In this document: piece by piece, positions 21,174-27,010 of the stretch | How positions within the stretch are numbered: position 1 is the first letter of the stretch | How the letters are laid out: each line of letters begins with the position of its first letter | Source: Bacteroidota bacterium | GTDB taxonomy: Bacteria > Bacteroidota > Bacteroidia > Chitinophagales > Chitinophagaceae | Direction: 5' to 3' | Assembly (NCBI GenBank): GCA_028876495.1 | Contig: JAGWRO010000091.1 | Coordinates: 1 to 64,000 of the forward strand | DNA: 64,000 nt | Made by a program: the position numbers and the translations under genes | The notes under the pieces: generated by a model | Databases searched by the model: none | The model's input: the letters and a program-made list of their open reading frames with translations, nothing else | Told to the model about the DNA's origin: nothing

Positions 21174-21201
21174 TTTTCATAAAAAACAAGCTATCAATTA
21201 A

Positions 21202-21231
21202 AAAAACTCCCGGATTTCTCCGGGAGTTTTT
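21202..21231. terminator. Bidirectional terminator shared by the lactonase gene and ncRNA copy 1
   Basis: A 13-bp perfect stem (AAAAACTCCCGGA with its complement) around TTTC. A-tract and T-tract on either side serve both strands. On the minus strand it closes the ncRNA; its stem differs in sequence from those of copies 2 and 3 but is equally paired. Confidence 0.9.
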
Positions 21232-21460
21232 AATAATTTAATCCTGGGGTTTCTTGGTTTTTCAGGCTTAAACTTTAGAATTTTTGAGGGTTAGTGTTCC
21301 TGAGATTCGGTTTTATCTTTAGATATTGGATATAAAAAAAGAAGTTGACTGATATCAGATTTTATTGGTTTTTCCGGGATTAATGGCAATTTTTTTCAAG
21401 GGGATATGGTTCCGATTGTTATCGGCAGATTAATGTTTGTTGAACATCAATCAACTTCTG
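21202..21460 (-). ncRNA. Candidate structured small RNA, copy 1
   Basis: About 259 nt on the minus strand. The first 32 nt are identical in all three copies and include AGAAGTTGATTGAT, which pairs perfectly (one G-U) with ATCAGTCAACTTCT at 21340-21353; a U-tract follows that arm. The middle is variable; here it can form its own CCGAT/ATCGG hairpin. A conserved GCCTGAAAAACC block and a CUCCCGGA-stem terminator close the RNA. Promoter boxes lie directly upstream. It has no coding potential that I can see. Class unknown; 6S-like is one possibility. Confidence 0.7.
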
Positions 21461-21463
21461 GAA

Positions 21464-21495
21464 CAAAGATAGAACCAATGGGTACGATCTGCAAT
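21464..21495 (-). promoter_or_regulatory. Promoter of ncRNA copy 1
   Basis: On the minus strand: ATTG (21492-21495), 20-bp spacer, TATCTTTG (21464-21471). The -7 box is identical in all three copies. Confidence 0.7.
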
Positions 21496-21579
21496 AGCAT
21501 TATTGCTGATTTTTCAGATTAAGGAAATACGGTTTCAATTCGTAAAAACCCTTTTCAAAATATAGAAATAATACGTTTC

Positions 21580-21687
21580 ATGGTGAAGATTAATAAAGAT
21601 AATCTGTATCGAATTAGAGAAACCAAAAGAAAAATCGATAAATTTATAAACCATGAGCTACTACTTCTTGAACAAAAATATTATTGA
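21580..21687 (+). CDS. Possible 35-residue basic peptide
   Basis: ATG to TGA frame encoding a Lys/Arg-rich helix-prone peptide (begins MVKINKDNLYRIRETKRKID). It ends 27 bp before the next small gene and is in the same direction. There is no recognisable homologue or promoter, so it may be chance. Confidence 0.25.
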   Translation: MVKINKDNLYRIRETKRKIDKFINHELLLLEQKYY

Positions 21688-21714
21688 ATAATAATCCTAA
21701 AATAAAAAATATTT

Positions 21715-21909
21715 ATGGCCCAGTTTATTAAGGTTACCCAAAAAGATGGTATTGAAATATTAATAAATACCAACATCATTGAAACTGTTTTTCCAGACCA
21801 CACTATGGCAAATTGTAATTCAATGATCAATTTTAACAAGGCTTCTGCTAAAAAAAGCTTTTACGCTCAACAAACCCTTGAAGAAATATGGAAAATGATA
21901 TTGCAATAA
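21715..21909 (+). CDS. Small uncharacterised protein, 64 aa
   Basis: The sequence FIKVTQKDGIEILINTNIIE followed by a variable turn and a C-terminal TLEEIWKMI has the rhythm of the short FlbD-like beta-rich fold, but similarity is weak and no motility genes of the flagellar type are nearby. It lacks a signal peptide. It is bounded by ncRNA copy 1 upstream and the convergent cupin gene downstream (18-bp gap). Confidence 0.55.
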   Translation: MAQFIKVTQKDGIEILINTNIIETVFPDHTMANCNSMINFNKASAKKSFYAQQTLEEIWKMILQ

Positions 21910-21927
21910 ATGAATGGCAAAAAATAA

Positions 21928-22431
21928 TCAGCATTCCCTGCTTAAACGGCTAACAACTTCTTTATACTTTGGAAAGGCTGCCAGGAGGTTTGTTTTATCT
22001 GCCATTTCAAAATCAGCAAAATCAAACCCAGGGGCCACAGTACAGCCAACAAGACTATACGAACTTTCCACAGCCGGTCCAGCAGCAAACCATGCCATGG
22101 CAGGCACCACAAACTGGAAAGTTTCACCTACATAAATATTTGAACCAAGTTTTATGCAATAATAATTTCCTCCAGGTTCAATTACATGAATCAGCAATTT
22201 ATCACCGGCATAAAAGTGCCAGCACTCATCGCTTTTAATACGATGAAAAAGAGAATGCTCCCCCTGCCGTAATAAATAATAAATGGCATTAGAAAAATTT
22301 CTTTCACCTTCAAACTGCGGGAATAATGCTTTTTTGGAAATACTTTCAGTAGCACGATAAGTTTCTTTAAAAAATCCTCCCTCGGGGTGAGATTCCAATT
22401 GAAGATGGCTTATAAAATAGTTCGCATTCAT
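21928..22431 (-). CDS. Cupin (DUF985/cupin_5) domain protein
   Basis: 167 residues. LESHPEGGFFKETYRA at the N-terminus, YLLRQGEHSLFHRIKSDECWHFYAGDKLLIHVI in the middle and VAPGFDFADFEMAD near the end define the DUF985 cupin barrel. Members bind a metal or sugar-like ligand; function is not established. It lies 50 bp downstream of the erythromycin-esterase-like gene on the same strand and is probably co-transcribed with it. Confidence 0.9.
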   Translation of the reverse strand: MNANYFISHLQLESHPEGGFFKETYRATESISKKALFPQFEGERNFSNAIYYLLRQGEHSLFHRIKSDECWHFYAGDKLLIHVIEPGGNYYCIKLGSNIYVGETFQFVVPAMAWFAAGPAVESSYSLVGCTVAPGFDFADFEMADKTNLLAAFPKYKEVVSRLSREC

Positions 22432-22481
22432 TTAGATTAATTTTGTATTGGTGATTCTGATTATAAAATTCCAGGAAAATA

Positions 22482-23738
22482 TTAAAAATCGAAAGGAAAA
22501 GTTTCGGGAACCTTTCTTCTGTCAGCATGTAAAGCAAGCGGATGCAATGCTTTGGTTTCATCAATAAAAATGAAAGCGTCATAACGTTGTGGAAGAAGTG
22601 ACGGAACATAATTTCCATATTTTTCTATAGCAGGATCGTATACCACTCCTATTGCCCTATGTCCTATTTTCTCAAAATATTCTTCAGGTATTTCATTATT
22701 AAAAAGTATATAACGGTCCTCATCACTTTGTTGATGTAAATGATATTCCACACTGCCCCTTTGTGCTTCAGGAACTTCCATTATTTCCATCGGGGCGCCC
22801 CACTCTGCACCGGCTATTACAGTGCCCTGGTACGTTGCAAAACCCGCGAGGTAAACTTTATTTTCACCGTATTCTTCTCTTGCCAGTTCGCCTATATTCA
22901 CCATCCCGGCTTTTGACATTCCTGTAGCTCTTGCATCACCAATGTGGGTGTTATGTTCCCACACAATTCCTTTGGCACTATTACCATGAAATTTCATGAG
23001 CCGGTTTAAAGTTTCCATCATGTGCCTGTCGCGTATATTCCAACTTTCATTATCAAACCCGATCATCGTACGATAATATTTTTCGGCATTTACCGCAATC
23101 AAAGCATTTTGCTCAGTATTAAATCCTGCTTCACGATCACCATCCATAAAATGGGCTTTTAGCCTTATCTCCTTTAAAAGCGCCAGCACTTCATCCCTGC
23201 AGCCGGATTCTCTTAAAGTATAACGCGCATATTGTTGCTCGTTTTCATTAAAGGGCTCAAAACATTGAATCGCTTTTTTCACTGAGTTAGCAGCATTTGG
23301 ATCCTCAGTTTCCAGATAATGCATCATCGCTTTCATCGAATCCCAAAGACTGTAGACATCCAATCCGTAAAAGCCAACTTTCTTATCTATTGCGTGGCCT
23401 TCATTATGTTCTCGCATCCATTCTGCAAGTCCGGCCACTTCCCAGTTTCCCCACATCCATGTTGGCCAACGATCAAAGGTTTTTAAAATATCTTCTATGC
23501 TATCTCCCGCATCTTTGTACCCCTTTATAAACCGGTTTATTTTATAACAATCAGGCCAGTCGCCTTCTACAGCAATAAAATTGAAGCCTTTTTCCTCTAT
23601 CAATCTTCTTGAAATAGCCGCACGCCATGTGTAGAATTCATGTGTACCATGCGAAGCTTCTCCCAGCATTACAATTGGACGGTCGCCAATATCCTCCAGC
23701 AACTGATCTAAATCTTTTGAATTATTTAATAGAAACAT
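22482..23738 (-). CDS. Erythromycin esterase-like hydrolase
   Basis: 418 residues. Family motifs are in order: IVMLGEASHGTHEFYTWRAAI near residue 20, FIAVEGDWPDCYKINRFI near residue 55, and KGIVWEHNTHIGDARATGM near residue 265. These hold the Glu and His residues of the EreA/EreB-type active site. Many chromosomal members do not give macrolide resistance and their natural substrate is unknown, so resistance should not be assumed. First gene of a probable two-gene unit with the cupin. Confidence 0.9.
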   Translation of the reverse strand: MFLLNNSKDLDQLLEDIGDRPIVMLGEASHGTHEFYTWRAAISRRLIEEKGFNFIAVEGDWPDCYKINRFIKGYKDAGDSIEDILKTFDRWPTWMWGNWEVAGLAEWMREHNEGHAIDKKVGFYGLDVYSLWDSMKAMMHYLETEDPNAANSVKKAIQCFEPFNENEQQYARYTLRESGCRDEVLALLKEIRLKAHFMDGDREAGFNTEQNALIAVNAEKYYRTMIGFDNESWNIRDRHMMETLNRLMKFHGNSAKGIVWEHNTHIGDARATGMSKAGMVNIGELAREEYGENKVYLAGFATYQGTVIAGAEWGAPMEIMEVPEAQRGSVEYHLHQQSDEDRYILFNNEIPEEYFEKIGHRAIGVVYDPAIEKYGNYVPSLLPQRYDAFIFIDETKALHPLALHADRRKVPETFPFDF

Positions 23739-23906
23739 AACAAACTATTTATGCTAAAAAGCCACAATTTACTTGCCAGAAGAAAGGTTTTCACCTTCTT
23801 TTCAAAATAAAAATTGCAATTAAAAGTTTGTTTACTGTTAAATGAAAAGTATGCTATTATTTAATTTTTTATACTTGCATTTTCCTTACCTTTTATAAAA
23901 AAAAAT

Positions 23907-24506
23907 TTGAACACTTCGCATTGGATATTGATAGGATTGTGGATCGTTTATTACTCACTTCATAGTGTATTTGCCTCAACGAGCGCAAAAGTATTTTTCA
24001 AAAAATATTTAGGAAAACACTTTCGGTATTATAGGTTGTGCTTCACGCTTTTTGCAACCATTACACTGGTTGGTTTATTATATTTTCAGTATTCTTTCTA
24101 TAGCCCGGTTTTAATTAAATCATTGATCATAAAATATTTATCTTTTATTTTTCTAATCATACCAGGAAGCATAATTATGATGATTTCTTTAAAAAAATAT
24201 TTCATGTTGCTGAGTGGAATAAGGTCAATATTTACATCTGTCTCCACTCCTGAATTAAAAATAGATGGCATACACAGATTTGTCCGCCATCCTTTATATT
24301 CAGGAACCATGGTTTTTGTGGCCGGCCTTTTTTTTATTTTACCTACGCTCAGCAATTTAATCGATGTCTTGTTATTAATCTTTTACATTTTAGTCGGAAT
24401 TATTTTTGAAGAAAAAAAATTAAAAAAAGAATTTGGGCCCGGTTACCTAGAGTACATGTCAAAAGTTCCGAAGTTGATACCCTCTTTTCGAAAACAAGAA
24501 AAGTGA
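23907..24506 (+). CDS. Isoprenylcysteine methyltransferase-like integral membrane protein
   Basis: 199 residues with about five hydrophobic helices. The C-terminal signature DGIHRFVRHPLYSGTMVFVAGLFF and FEEKKLKKEFGPGYLEYMSKVP match the ICMT/phospholipid methyltransferase family, where these segments bind S-adenosylmethionine. No ATG occurs before the first helix, so a TTG at 23907 is the start. A 7/8 match to the -7 box (TATACTTG, 23870-23877) lies upstream. Substrate is unknown. Confidence 0.85.
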   Translation: MNTSHWILIGLWIVYYSLHSVFASTSAKVFFKKYLGKHFRYYRLCFTLFATITLVGLLYFQYSFYSPVLIKSLIIKYLSFIFLIIPGSIIMMISLKKYFMLLSGIRSIFTSVSTPELKIDGIHRFVRHPLYSGTMVFVAGLFFILPTLSNLIDVLLLIFYILVGIIFEEKKLKKEFGPGYLEYMSKVPKLIPSFRKQEK

Positions 24507-24542
24507 ACTCAGTAGAAAATGAAACAAAAGTATCTTTGAAAA

Positions 24543-25553
24543 ATGAAATACCAGTTAGGCGATACGGTTTTGATGTTGCATTCGCAGGAAGAAGGTGAAA
24601 TAGTGGAAATTATCAGTAAAGAATTGGTAATGGTAGAAGTGAAAGGCGTTCGTTTTCCTGTTTACACAGACCAGATCGATTTTCCTTATTTTAAAAGATT
24701 CTCAGAGAAAAAAATAGTGGTTCCCAAAAAAGAAAAGGTGTACATAGATAATTTAAAAAAAGAAACGGTTTCTAAAAAATATCATATTCATTCAGGAGTT
24801 TGGTTGTCTTTTTTACCGGTTTTTGATAAAGATATTTTTGATGATGATGTGGTTGAAAAATTCAAAATTTACCTACTCAATCAAACAAATGACACTTATC
24901 ATTTTTCTTACGAGATAAAATTTAAAGTATCTCCTGATTTTCATTTAAGCAATACAGCTTTGCCTTTCAATGAATTTTATCTTCACGATATTCCTTTTGA
25001 AGAAATGAATGATGCTCCAAAATTTGAATTCGATTTTGAATTGGCTCCAAAAAATAAAAAGAAAGTTGATCATTATGAAACAAGTTTTAAAATAAAAGCC
25101 AAACAATTATTTAAAAAGATAGAAGAGATGAAATTGAAAAATGAGCCTACTTTTTCATTTCTGCTTTTTGAAAATTATCCGGATAAAATTGATGAAGTAA
25201 TTCCGGACTACTATAATGCCGGAGGTAAAATCTATAATATTTCCGAAGCAAGACAAAAACTGGAACCGGCCCGCTCCGTGGTTGACCTTCATATTGAAAA
25301 GTTAACCGATAACTGGAAAGGCTTGAGCAATTTTGAAATACTCACGATCCAGTTAAGCAATTTCGAAAAATATTATCAATTAGCTGTGGCTCACCATCAG
25401 CCTAACCTGATAGTGATTCATGGAGTAGGAACCGGCAAACTGCGTAATGAGATTCATGAAATACTAAAAACAAAAAAAGAAGTACGCACATTCGCCAATC
25501 AGTACCATGAAAATTTCGGGTTTGGGGCTACAGAAATCTATTTTCAATATTAA
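24543..25553 (+). CDS. DUF2027 and Smr domain protein (MutS2 C-terminus-like)
   Basis: 336 residues. A short N-terminal barrel (YQLGDTVLMLHSQEEGEIVEI) is followed by the DUF2027 domain. The last 85 residues form an Smr domain with VVDLHIEKL, LIVIHGVGTGKLRNEI and a tail ending GATEIYFQY. Smr domains nick or bind branched DNA or RNA; in MutS2 they are endonucleases. DUF2027/Smr fusions are typical of Bacteroidetes and their role is not established. RNase P RNA lies immediately downstream. Confidence 0.9.
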   Translation: MKYQLGDTVLMLHSQEEGEIVEIISKELVMVEVKGVRFPVYTDQIDFPYFKRFSEKKIVVPKKEKVYIDNLKKETVSKKYHIHSGVWLSFLPVFDKDIFDDDVVEKFKIYLLNQTNDTYHFSYEIKFKVSPDFHLSNTALPFNEFYLHDIPFEEMNDAPKFEFDFELAPKNKKKVDHYETSFKIKAKQLFKKIEEMKLKNEPTFSFLLFENYPDKIDEVIPDYYNAGGKIYNISEARQKLEPARSVVDLHIEKLTDNWKGLSNFEILTIQLSNFEKYYQLAVAHHQPNLIVIHGVGTGKLRNEIHEILKTKKEVRTFANQYHENFGFGATEIYFQY

Positions 25554-25579
25554 TAGCTGTATTATAAAATCGTAACTTA

Positions 25580-25962
25580 GCAGACGCTGCAAACCGGGTT
25601 ATCGTTCCAATGAAAATTGGGAAGGAAAGTCCGGACAGTATAGAGCAACACACCGGTTAATAGCCGGTCCTGATCCTGAGCTTGTCGAAGGGTTGGGAAG
25701 AAAGTGCCACAGAAAATTACCGTCCCGATTAAAATCGGGATAAGGGTGAAAACGTGAGGTAAGAGCTCACGATCGTTGCAAGTAATTGTAACAATGGGTA
25801 AACCTTGTGTACTGCAATGCCACGTATATCAGCGCCTGAAGGCGGCTCGCCTGATGCTGAAGGGTAGGCAGCAAGATTGTTGCAGTAATGCAACAGCCAG
25901 ATAAATGATAACCGTCCGCCGCCTGGCGGAACACAGAATCCGGCTTATAGGTTTGCAGTAAT
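25580..25962 (+). ncRNA. rnpB: RNase P RNA (bacterial type A)
   Basis: The catalytic RNA that trims tRNA 5' ends. Conserved blocks are present in order: GGAAGGAAAGTCCGGACA near 25620, AAGTGCCACAGAAA near 25705, GGGTGAAAACGTGAGGTAAG near 25746, and CAGAATCCGGCTTAT near 25935. Helix P1 is closed by CTGCAAACC (25587-25595) and GGTTTGCAG (25950-25958). Variable helices carry palindromic mini-repeats: CCTGAGCTTGTCGAAGG, TCCCGATTAAAATCGGGA and CCGCCGCCTGGCGG. Exact ends are uncertain by several bases. Confidence 0.95.
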
Positions 25963-25970
25963 TGAATTTA

Positions 25971-26001
25971 AAAAGGCAGTCGAAACGGCTGCCTTTTTTT
26001 T
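25971..26001 (+). terminator. Terminator of rnpB
   Basis: AAGGCAGTCG/CGGCTGCCTT stem with AAA loop followed by eight T, about 12 bp after the P1 helix. Confidence 0.9.
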
Positions 26002-26020
26002 ACAGCAAACAAACAAATAA
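26002..26020 (-). repeat. Recurrent intergenic motif, variant with GCTGT end
   Basis: Minus strand TTATTTGTTTGTTTGCTGT. One base differs from the TTTACTGT ending seen in the other copies. Confidence 0.4.
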
Positions 26021-26045
26021 GCTATAAAATAATTTTCTTTAAAAT

Positions 26046-26079
26046 AAAAAACTTCCGCATTTTACAACGGAAGTTTTTT
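26046..26079 (-). terminator. Terminator of ncRNA copy 2
   Basis: ACTTCCG/CGGAAGT stem extended by A-T pairs, T-tract on the minus strand. Confidence 0.85.
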
Positions 26080-26303
26080 AATTTTTTAATCCTGTGGGTT
26101 TTCGGTTTTTCAGGATAAATGTAAGGCTGGATTAAAGCCTGGTTTTCATCGGGATAAATATTTTTCTAAGGACTTGAATTCAAAAAAAAAGAAGTTGACT
26201 GATATCAGATTTTATTTTTGGTTTTTCCGGGATTAGTGGAAAAGGCTCTTTTCAATGGATTTGGATTTTTGATTAATGTTTGTTGAACATCAATCAACTT
26301 CTG
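26046..26303 (-). ncRNA. Candidate structured small RNA, copy 2
   Basis: About 258 nt. It shares the 32-nt 5' block, the 14-bp closing stem (26190-26203 with 26289-26302) followed by nine U, the CCCGGAAAAACC and ATCCTGAAAAACC blocks, and a terminator hairpin with copies 1 and 3. The apical loop pairs GAAAAG with CUUUUC, whereas copy 3 pairs GAAA with UUUC there with different flanks. It is the downstream member of a tandem duplication of about 345 bp offset by about 390 bp. Downstream lies rnpB on the opposite strand, so no mRNA follows it. Confidence 0.72.
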
Positions 26304-26306
26304 GAA

Positions 26307-26338
26307 CAAAGATACACTGGCATCATTAGCTGCGCAAG
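26307..26338 (-). promoter_or_regulatory. Promoter of ncRNA copy 2
   Basis: Minus strand CTTG (26335-26338), 20-bp spacer, TATCTTTG (26307-26314). Confidence 0.72.
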
Positions 26339-26434
26339 CGCATTACTGCCTGTTTTTACATCTACTGAATTTACTGTCGCAATCGTGAATTTACCTGAAA
26401 TGGTTTTGCGTTATTTACTTATTCTTTAAGTAAC

Positions 26435-26468
26435 AAAAAAACTTCCGCATTTTTCAACGGAAGCTTTT
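26435..26468 (-). terminator. Terminator of ncRNA copy 3
   Basis: CTTCCG/CGGAAG stem, T-tract on the minus strand; slightly degenerate compared with copy 2. Confidence 0.8.
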
Positions 26469-26689
26469 AATTTTTTAACCTGTGGGTTTCAGCTTTTCAG
26501 GGATAATTGTGAGGCTGGATTAAAGCCTGGTTTTCATCGGGATAAATATTTTTCTAAGGACTTGAATTCAAAAAAAAGAAGTTGACTGATATCGGATTTA
26601 TTGTTGGTTTTTCCGGGATTAGTGGAAACTGATATTTTCAATGGATTTGGATTTTTGATTAATGTTTGTTGAACATCAATCAACTTCTG
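26435..26689 (-). ncRNA. Candidate structured small RNA, copy 3
   Basis: About 255 nt. The same 5' block and 14-bp closing stem (26577-26590 with 26675-26688) are present. Most differences from copy 2 fall in loops and in the linker before the terminator. The A inserted beside the TSS-proximal CTGG and the 19-bp promoter spacer are the only promoter-region changes. The copy lies upstream of copy 2 and in the same orientation; each has its own promoter and terminator. Confidence 0.72.
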
Positions 26690-26693
26690 AGAA

Positions 26694-26724
26694 CAAAGAT
26701 AGCATTGCTCCATTGCTGCGCAAG
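26694..26724 (-). promoter_or_regulatory. Promoter of ncRNA copy 3
   Basis: Minus strand CTTG (26721-26724), 19-bp spacer, TATCTTTG (26694-26701). Confidence 0.72.
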
Positions 26725-27010
26725 CGCATTAGTGCCTGTTTTTACATCTACTGAATTTACTGTTGAAATAGTAAATTAACGATGCTCTATAATCGCAAAA
26801 CCACCTTTCGCCTGTAGTATAAAATGACCAGAAAATTCAGAATACAAATCGGGTTTACGGTATATTCAGTAATGAATAAGAAAAAATCTGCTATTCAAAT
26901 TAAAAAAATTATTATGAAGGTAAAATTGGTTTAAAGTCATTTTTTTCGGATTAACCAACCCACTAAAGACTGACAGGCAAATATGGCTAATTTTTATTTT
27001 GCTAATGGTA
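26725..27010. other. Non-coding stretch upstream of ncRNA copy 3
   Basis: The first 55 bp are duplicated from the flank of copy 2 (about 26339-26391). Beyond 26780 I see no gene, hairpin or promoter that can be supported. Confidence 0.6.

Follow-up and report, generated by a model that had tools for sequence, protein, structure and literature searches.

A 64,000-nt stretch of a Chitinophagaceae genome (here called the window) carries three similar intergenic segments on its minus strand, two of them close to the RNase P RNA gene, which raises the question of what they encode and what the product might do. The host genome, from the genus of Ginsengibacter hankyongi, comprises 4.70 Mb in 99 contigs and is 99.96% complete. 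A sequence-only reading had taken the segments for three copies of a structured small RNA, each with its own promoter and terminator, and this proved correct as to number, strand, place, and the presence of all named elements. Four further copies in the genome, a competing 5′ hairpin, RUCC repeats, an inverted-repeat promoter box, and the genomic contexts go beyond that reading.

Three intergenic copies of one element

BLASTN, models R1 and R2, and fold prediction delimited copy a as a predicted transcript from a CAGAAG start to the final terminator at positions 21201 to 21460 (minus strand, as for all RNA features below), with a first domain at 21340 to 21460. Copies b and c were placed by BLASTN, covariance model, and folding at 26046 to 26303 (first domain, 26190 to 26303) and 26435 to 26689 (first domain, 26577 to 26689). 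The invariant 5′ block (CAGAAGTTGATTGATGTTCAACAAACATTAATC) is present in them, at 33 nt rather than the 32 nt first counted. It pairs with a distal block in the predicted folds, forming a long-range stem that extends over 17 bp instead of the 14 bp previously given and runs directly into a run of U's. In copy b, this stem, located by folding and from 84 homologues, has its 5′ arm at 26286 to 26302 and its distal arm at 26190 to 26206, with the U-tract just below 26190. A downstream module bearing the motifs UAUCC and GAAAACC follows at 26081 to 26181 (sequence and motif counts), and the predicted final terminator hairpin with its U-tract occupies 26046 to 26080; terminator hairpins are present in the copies, as had been described. 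Both CC..GAAAAACC blocks were also recovered, except that the second has drifted to GAAAAGC in copy c.

The segments are noncoding, as proposed earlier: no open reading frame (ORF) of at least 80 amino acids overlaps the window copies, and several indels among them are not multiples of three. A five-codon frame in their 5′ block was rejected as coding since it is interrupted in copies L004 and L007. No gene lies downstream of the window copies on the same strand. The RNase P RNA gene is at 25586 to 25963 on the plus strand, with copies b and c situated immediately past it and directed toward it. This convergent layout (25586 to 26689) may be a chance neighborhood or an antisense arrangement and was not seen as a general feature. 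A BLASTN search with copy b found seven copies in the genome, namely, three in the window, two on contig C82, and one each on C27 and C5; one of the two C82 copies (L006) lacks the distal stem arm.

The window promoters conform to TTG-N19/20-TATCTTTG, as the sequence-only reading had it, and belong to a shared plan of a GTAAAT box, an inverted repeat (GAGCAATAnTGCTC), and TAnnTTTG. In copy a, a pattern match with 2 mismatches covers 21464 to 21508, with TAnnTTTG at 21464 to 21471 and the inverted-repeat box at 21492 to 21508. Sequence and pattern place the promoter of copy b at 26307 to 26374 (TAnnTTTG, 26307 to 26314; inverted-repeat box, 26335 to 26351; GTAAAT box, 26369 to 26374) and, from its sequence, that of copy c at 26694 to 26737 (TAnnTTTG, 26694 to 26701; inverted-repeat box, 26721 to 26737; spacing, 19). 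For wider comparison, a set of 134 copies was chosen by a pattern that demands GAAGTTGATTG, TTTG immediately upstream, and a distal arm close to consensus; these three features are built into that set and are not findings in it. The pattern does not include the local hairpin, the U-tract, or the remaining promoter boxes, and the copies are mutually related. Among the 132 promoters with enough upstream sequence, TAnnTTTG was present in 108 and TTG at the right distance in 95. The inverted repeat occurred in 96 of 132 versus 19 of 397 control windows and a GTAWWT box in 110 of 132 versus 14 of 397, the controls being taken 300 to 700 nt upstream and unaligned to any promoter. A strict inverted repeat plus TAnnTTTG pattern (at most 2 mismatches) had four matches in the host genome, all four at RNA copies; the other three copies were missed.

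Distribution and genomic context

The RNA family is uncatalogued in the sense that Rfam 15 does not contain it. The window copies had no Rfam match, and Bacteroidales-1 (RF01693) and Flavo-1 (RF01705) were absent both from the matches at the gathering score and from those at E values up to 10 for positions 21180 to 26800; ten further RNA loci were without a match at E 0.05. Rfam families, 6S among them, were rejected as identities for lack of model matches. A literature search, which lacked subscription journals and is weak evidence, found no title describing this RNA and, for most of the Chitinophagaceae, no RNA-level study. The GUCCY-hairpin appears as a Bacteroidetes motif without an Rfam number in a table within the accessible part of PMC2864571.

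Model R1 matched 86 of 294 sampled Chitinophagaceae genomes at an E value of 0.01 per genome, at which about 3 false genomes are expected among 294; the matches spread over 33 of 101 sampled genera, about a third. Matching genomes hold 1 to 10 copies, some in tandem. In the sample of the host's own genus, 18 of 20 genomes were matched by R1, the two misses being 79% and 59% complete. Model R2 matched 24 of 248 genomes sampled from the order and 3 of 295 from the class, all of them Chitinophagaceae, under stricter filters, so that distant relatives could be missed. An exact pattern was found in 55 stretches of a genome contig collection, with carriers including Ferruginibacter paludis, Flavisolibacter ginsengisoli, Niastella soli, Terrimonas ferruginea, and Paracnuella aquatica. 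In one genome (G246), near-identical copies L097, L098, and L099 are spaced about 408 to 413 bp apart, and because two of them sit at contig ends, a longer tandem array may have been interrupted in the assembly.

Gene context was compared at loci L014 to L037, taken from 24 of the 80 matching genomes from other genera. At 20 of these, a cystathionine-beta-synthase-like gene (so named from a query score under that model's cutoff) and/or a TroA-like metal receptor gene surrounds the RNA on the RNA's strand; L014, L015, L018, and L026 have neither. The host's own C5 copy (L007) is flanked by both genes and is therefore probably ancestral, the other host copies probably being later duplicates.

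A second context, seen in several genera, consists of two NarL/LuxR-type response regulators (Response_reg plus GerE), with an RNA divergent from each. One of them, RR-A, scores E 3.1e-35 against the NCBIfam UvrY/SirA/GacA model, below that model's cutoff. Half of the 30 fetched RR-A loci (15) have an RNA model match divergent from and upstream of RR-A, three (L176, L187, and L188) have one elsewhere, probably beside RR-B, and 12 have no counted match, including L193 with a match at E 0.012. The host genome encodes an RR-A homologue (75% identity) with a divergent element built on the RNA's own plan: it has motifs, a terminator, and a closing helix that is likewise long (z = −3.95); since its model score is 17.2 bits (E 0.09), it is a candidate RNA copy only. 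Over 147 genomes, RNA and RR-A were found together in 35, the RNA alone in 5, RR-A alone in 17, and neither in 90 (Fisher P = 8e-16, kinship ignored and the RR-A threshold fixed after the host's own score was seen).

Further reading frames accompany these regulators. At L182, L183, L187, L189, L190, L191, L195, and L197, ORFs of 17 to 23 codons (e.g., MKKVSRIIWNDNEIVTTWEE and MKRLTSAGTKAPISWEE) lie upstream of RR-A and follow a conserved ACTTAC/GTTACTGTT leader; they are possible signal peptides. A protein of about 120 to 136 amino acids takes the place of this short ORF at L107 (2865 to 3215), L168, L169, L171, L172, L173, L178, L180, L181, and L188, and the L107 protein had no Pfam or NCBIfam match. 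At L087 (2970 to 4867; genome G175), the stretch separating the two regulators encodes a further response regulator, the third at this locus, along with a HisKA_3 histidine kinase and a barstar-like protein.

Competing helices and repeated motifs

Compared with dinucleotide shuffles, the predicted fold of the 5′ domain is more stable in all three window copies (z = −5.3, −4.9, and −6.1), and the same holds for the six complete host copies (z = −3.0 to −6.1). As a feature shared across the family, the two ends of the first domain can pair in a closing helix of 15 to 17 bp that leads into a U-tract. In an alignment of 150 rows from 160 matches, reduced to 84 distinct sequences by dropping reverse-strand shadows, short matches, and repeats, long-stem pairs 2 to 13 were formed in 97.9% of cells versus 17 to 49% in other registers, a count that leans toward the model because the stem arms are the ends of the model matches. 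Covariation, whose absence from homologues had been named as a ground for doubt, was found but is limited: pair 14 varies on both sides (U-A, 62; C-G, 14), and most other pairs hardly vary. Together with homologues in many genera and shared promoters, the conserved closing stem with its one compensatory pair gives good support to the earlier proposal of a structured, multicopy family of trans-acting type.

The 5′ strand of the long stem is also used by a local hairpin, GATTGATGTT-CAACA-AACATTAATC (26271 to 26295 in copy b), with a predicted energy of −7.5 kcal/mol on its own. The two helices are mutually exclusive, and both are conserved: at least seven contiguous local pairs, GATTG included, can form in 88% of 130 distinct copies, compared with 21% when the downstream part is shuffled. 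The six rows shown with the fewest local pairs (L064, L068, L069 twice, L071, and L134) come from loci with the regulator or its small-protein neighbor. At the level of conserved predicted helices, the RNA thus has the mutually exclusive terminator and competing hairpin of an attenuator. Competing helices and a U-tract suggest, as a model, that either a short or a long product is selected during transcription.

The linkers are rich in A and C and poor in G (A, 0.46; C, 0.22; G, 0.10; 126 sequences), and their enriched k-mers include TATCC, ATCCA, GAAAAAC, and similar words. RUCC, frequently in the arrangement RUCC-N2/3-RUCC, and GAAAACC recur both in the loop closed by the stem and downstream of it, where they are mainly predicted to be unpaired. 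Motifs were counted in 18 transcripts (three from the window and 15 from the conserved locus) with ends set by hand. RUCC followed by A, G, or T occurred 218 times, versus 57.7 in dinucleotide shuffles, with up to 29 per RNA, and GA+CC occurred 75 times versus 36.8. Window copies b and c have five RUCC motifs each (1.5 and 1.8 expected), and copy a is not enriched (2 versus 2.0). Motif bases were predicted to be more unpaired than the rest in all 18 transcripts (means, 0.69 versus 0.48). In the fifteen conserved-locus transcripts, UCC is preceded by A in 165 cases, G in 54, U in 28, and C in 17. Successive motifs lie 6 to 7 nt apart in 50 of 204 gaps, compared with 17.4 (SD, 3.9) under random placement, a preference that, judged from sequence, would suit a factor with two sites. 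Since neither of the enriched contexts, TATCCAA and ATCCAAT, lengthens a possible pairing of AUCCAA with the 16S rRNA 3′ end, that reading was set aside. A GCCTATGCYGTAAAAAGCGATGATGGC-type hairpin occurs in the downstream module of L065, L121, L123, and L146, where each RNA has between one and three of them; its place in other genera is taken by CCTCCTGCTAAA..TTTAGCAGGAGG.

Possible modes of action and candidate partners

The RNA is probably regulatory and of a decoy type built of new parts. It probably acts in trans, because the copies adjoin many different genes and those in the window have no downstream gene on their strand. From the recurrence of unpaired motifs, the amplified copy number, and the response regulator, we arrive at titration of an RNA-binding factor, and with somewhat less than even confidence, we favor a family-specific trans-acting decoy with Gac/Rsm-like logic, one that does without CsrA and uses a different motif. 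NarL-type response regulators, as encoded beside some copies, would control the promoters. The 5′ hairpin would fold first and be displaced by the distal arm once this is made; long-stem formation would yield a short terminated RNA of about 115 to 125 nt, and read-through would yield a longer RNA with more motifs. These motifs would titrate a putative RNA-binding factor away from its mRNAs, with copy number setting the decoy dose. A fuller version, which we consider rather unlikely to hold as a whole, would be a CsrA-less global switch of the Chitinophagaceae in which a NarL-type two-component system drives a dosage-amplified RUCC decoy for a two-site factor and a strand-exchanging 5′ end selects the short or long form. 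The weak RR-A neighbor in the host genome, the unenriched copy a, and the 12 of 30 RR-A loci without a counted RNA weigh against the decoy, as does the position of the conserved-locus RNA on the same strand as the downstream gene, which is compatible with a cis-acting leader too. So do the lack of CsrA in all 20 genomes examined and, by eye, the lack of the motif in RRM mRNA leaders.

RsmX/Y/Z and CsrB offer the closest working likeness, going by the accessible parts of PMC2375449 and PMC7911923. The Gac/Rsm and Csr decoys (RsmX/Y/Z and CsrB/C) likewise occur in several copies with repeated unpaired motifs and have an inverted repeat upstream of the promoter as well as a link to a NarL-type response regulator, which for the present RNA is a putative one. 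In contrast, the Chitinophagaceae RNA is G-poor and carries RUCC in place of repeated unpaired GGA motifs, has a competing 5′ hairpin in addition to the closing stem, and adjoins the regulator in those relatives that have it. CsrA (PF02599) was found in none of 20 genomes, 10 of them RNA carrying, and was rejected as the partner. With both CsrA and the GGA repeats absent, we do not file the RNA as a Csr/Rsm member. The family offers a defined motif together with a promoter box and a regulator candidate, which provide a handle on which RNA-binding factor replaces CsrA or Hfq in this part of the Bacteroidota and make that question directly testable by pull-down.

Among the alternatives to a decoy, we regard as unlikely, yet deserving of attention, a family of base-pairing RNAs whose unpaired repeats are mRNA seeds, with targets shared or divided among copies. 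Multiple copies and conserved unpaired blocks would suit it, and the Bacteroidota provide precedents for multicopy base-pairing RNAs in FopS of Bacteroides thetaiotaomicron, which, in the accessible part of its description, has 14 members bound by RbpB (PMC11697453). By that description rather than by sequence, FopS is alike in being multicopy and intergenic with its own promoters; the present RNA differs in its occurrence, within the samples searched, only in Chitinophagaceae and in its repetition of a short motif, and many short degenerate repeats at a preferred spacing are less like one extended seed. A cis-acting leader in which the 5′ hairpin and the terminator-like stem govern read-through, ancestrally into the metal receptor gene, is quite improbable. 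The receptor does lie on the RNA's strand at the conserved locus, and attenuators and riboswitches likewise contain two helices that exclude each other, with a U-tract after one of them. However, the downstream gene is constant at the conserved locus but missing for the window copies, which stand alone, and copies occur at many other sites. Of 17 RNA-to-receptor intervals, 7 (6 distinct; transcript ends set by hand) contain one more predicted terminator at least as stable as −8 kcal/mol and the other 10 have none, leaving a cis role conceivable at the conserved locus.

Rho prefers C-rich, G-poor RNA, and the linker composition (C, 0.22, versus G, 0.10) would fit a decoy or loading site for Rho or another general factor favoring such single strands, a reading that we find more doubtful still given that a defined motif at 6- to 7-nt spacing is more specific than bulk composition. 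A 6S-like RNA binding RNA polymerase, raised as a possibility by the sequence-only reading, now seems highly implausible. Its long closing stem recalls the terminal helix of 6S and 6S-Flavo, and no other place in the host genome gave a 6S match, but neither model (RF00013 and RF01685) matched the copies or any other host sequence at E 1; the sensitivity of 6S-Flavo is unproven here, with no Bacteroidota genome above the cutoff among 14 controls. Moreover, there are several copies per genome, and the stem encloses one large, mostly unpaired motif-repeat loop rather than a helix with a central bubble. We give equally little credence to mobile DNA or a mere repeat, for which the copy number and tandem arrays might speak. 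The site beside the cystathionine-synthase-like gene is conserved in many genera, as are the promoter and stem; viral contigs (exact pattern), plasmids, and phages gave no match, on which ground this candidate was rejected, and no transposase was recognized by eye among the 25 recurrent neighbor clusters shown. Nothing points to the transposable-element origin that had been named as an objection.

As for the putative factor bound by the decoy, RRM proteins were considered. Their copy number averages 5.0 in 10 RNA-positive and 1.7 in 10 RNA-negative chosen genomes (P = 0.015), a comparison uncontrolled for genome size and kinship that neither supports nor excludes them. By eye, the RUCC motif is absent from RRM mRNA leaders at 50 starts passing a start-motif filter, three of which are repeats of one gene in overlapping loci. 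Across L203 to L249, the leaders of many RRM mRNAs share a conserved stretch around TTAATTTGAGCCTCGCAT whose end is rich in pyrimidines, perhaps reflecting autoregulation. In Ginsengibacter hankyongi (L214; G045:C2:81900-84600), about 1 kb separates two RNA copies from an RRM protein gene downstream of them.
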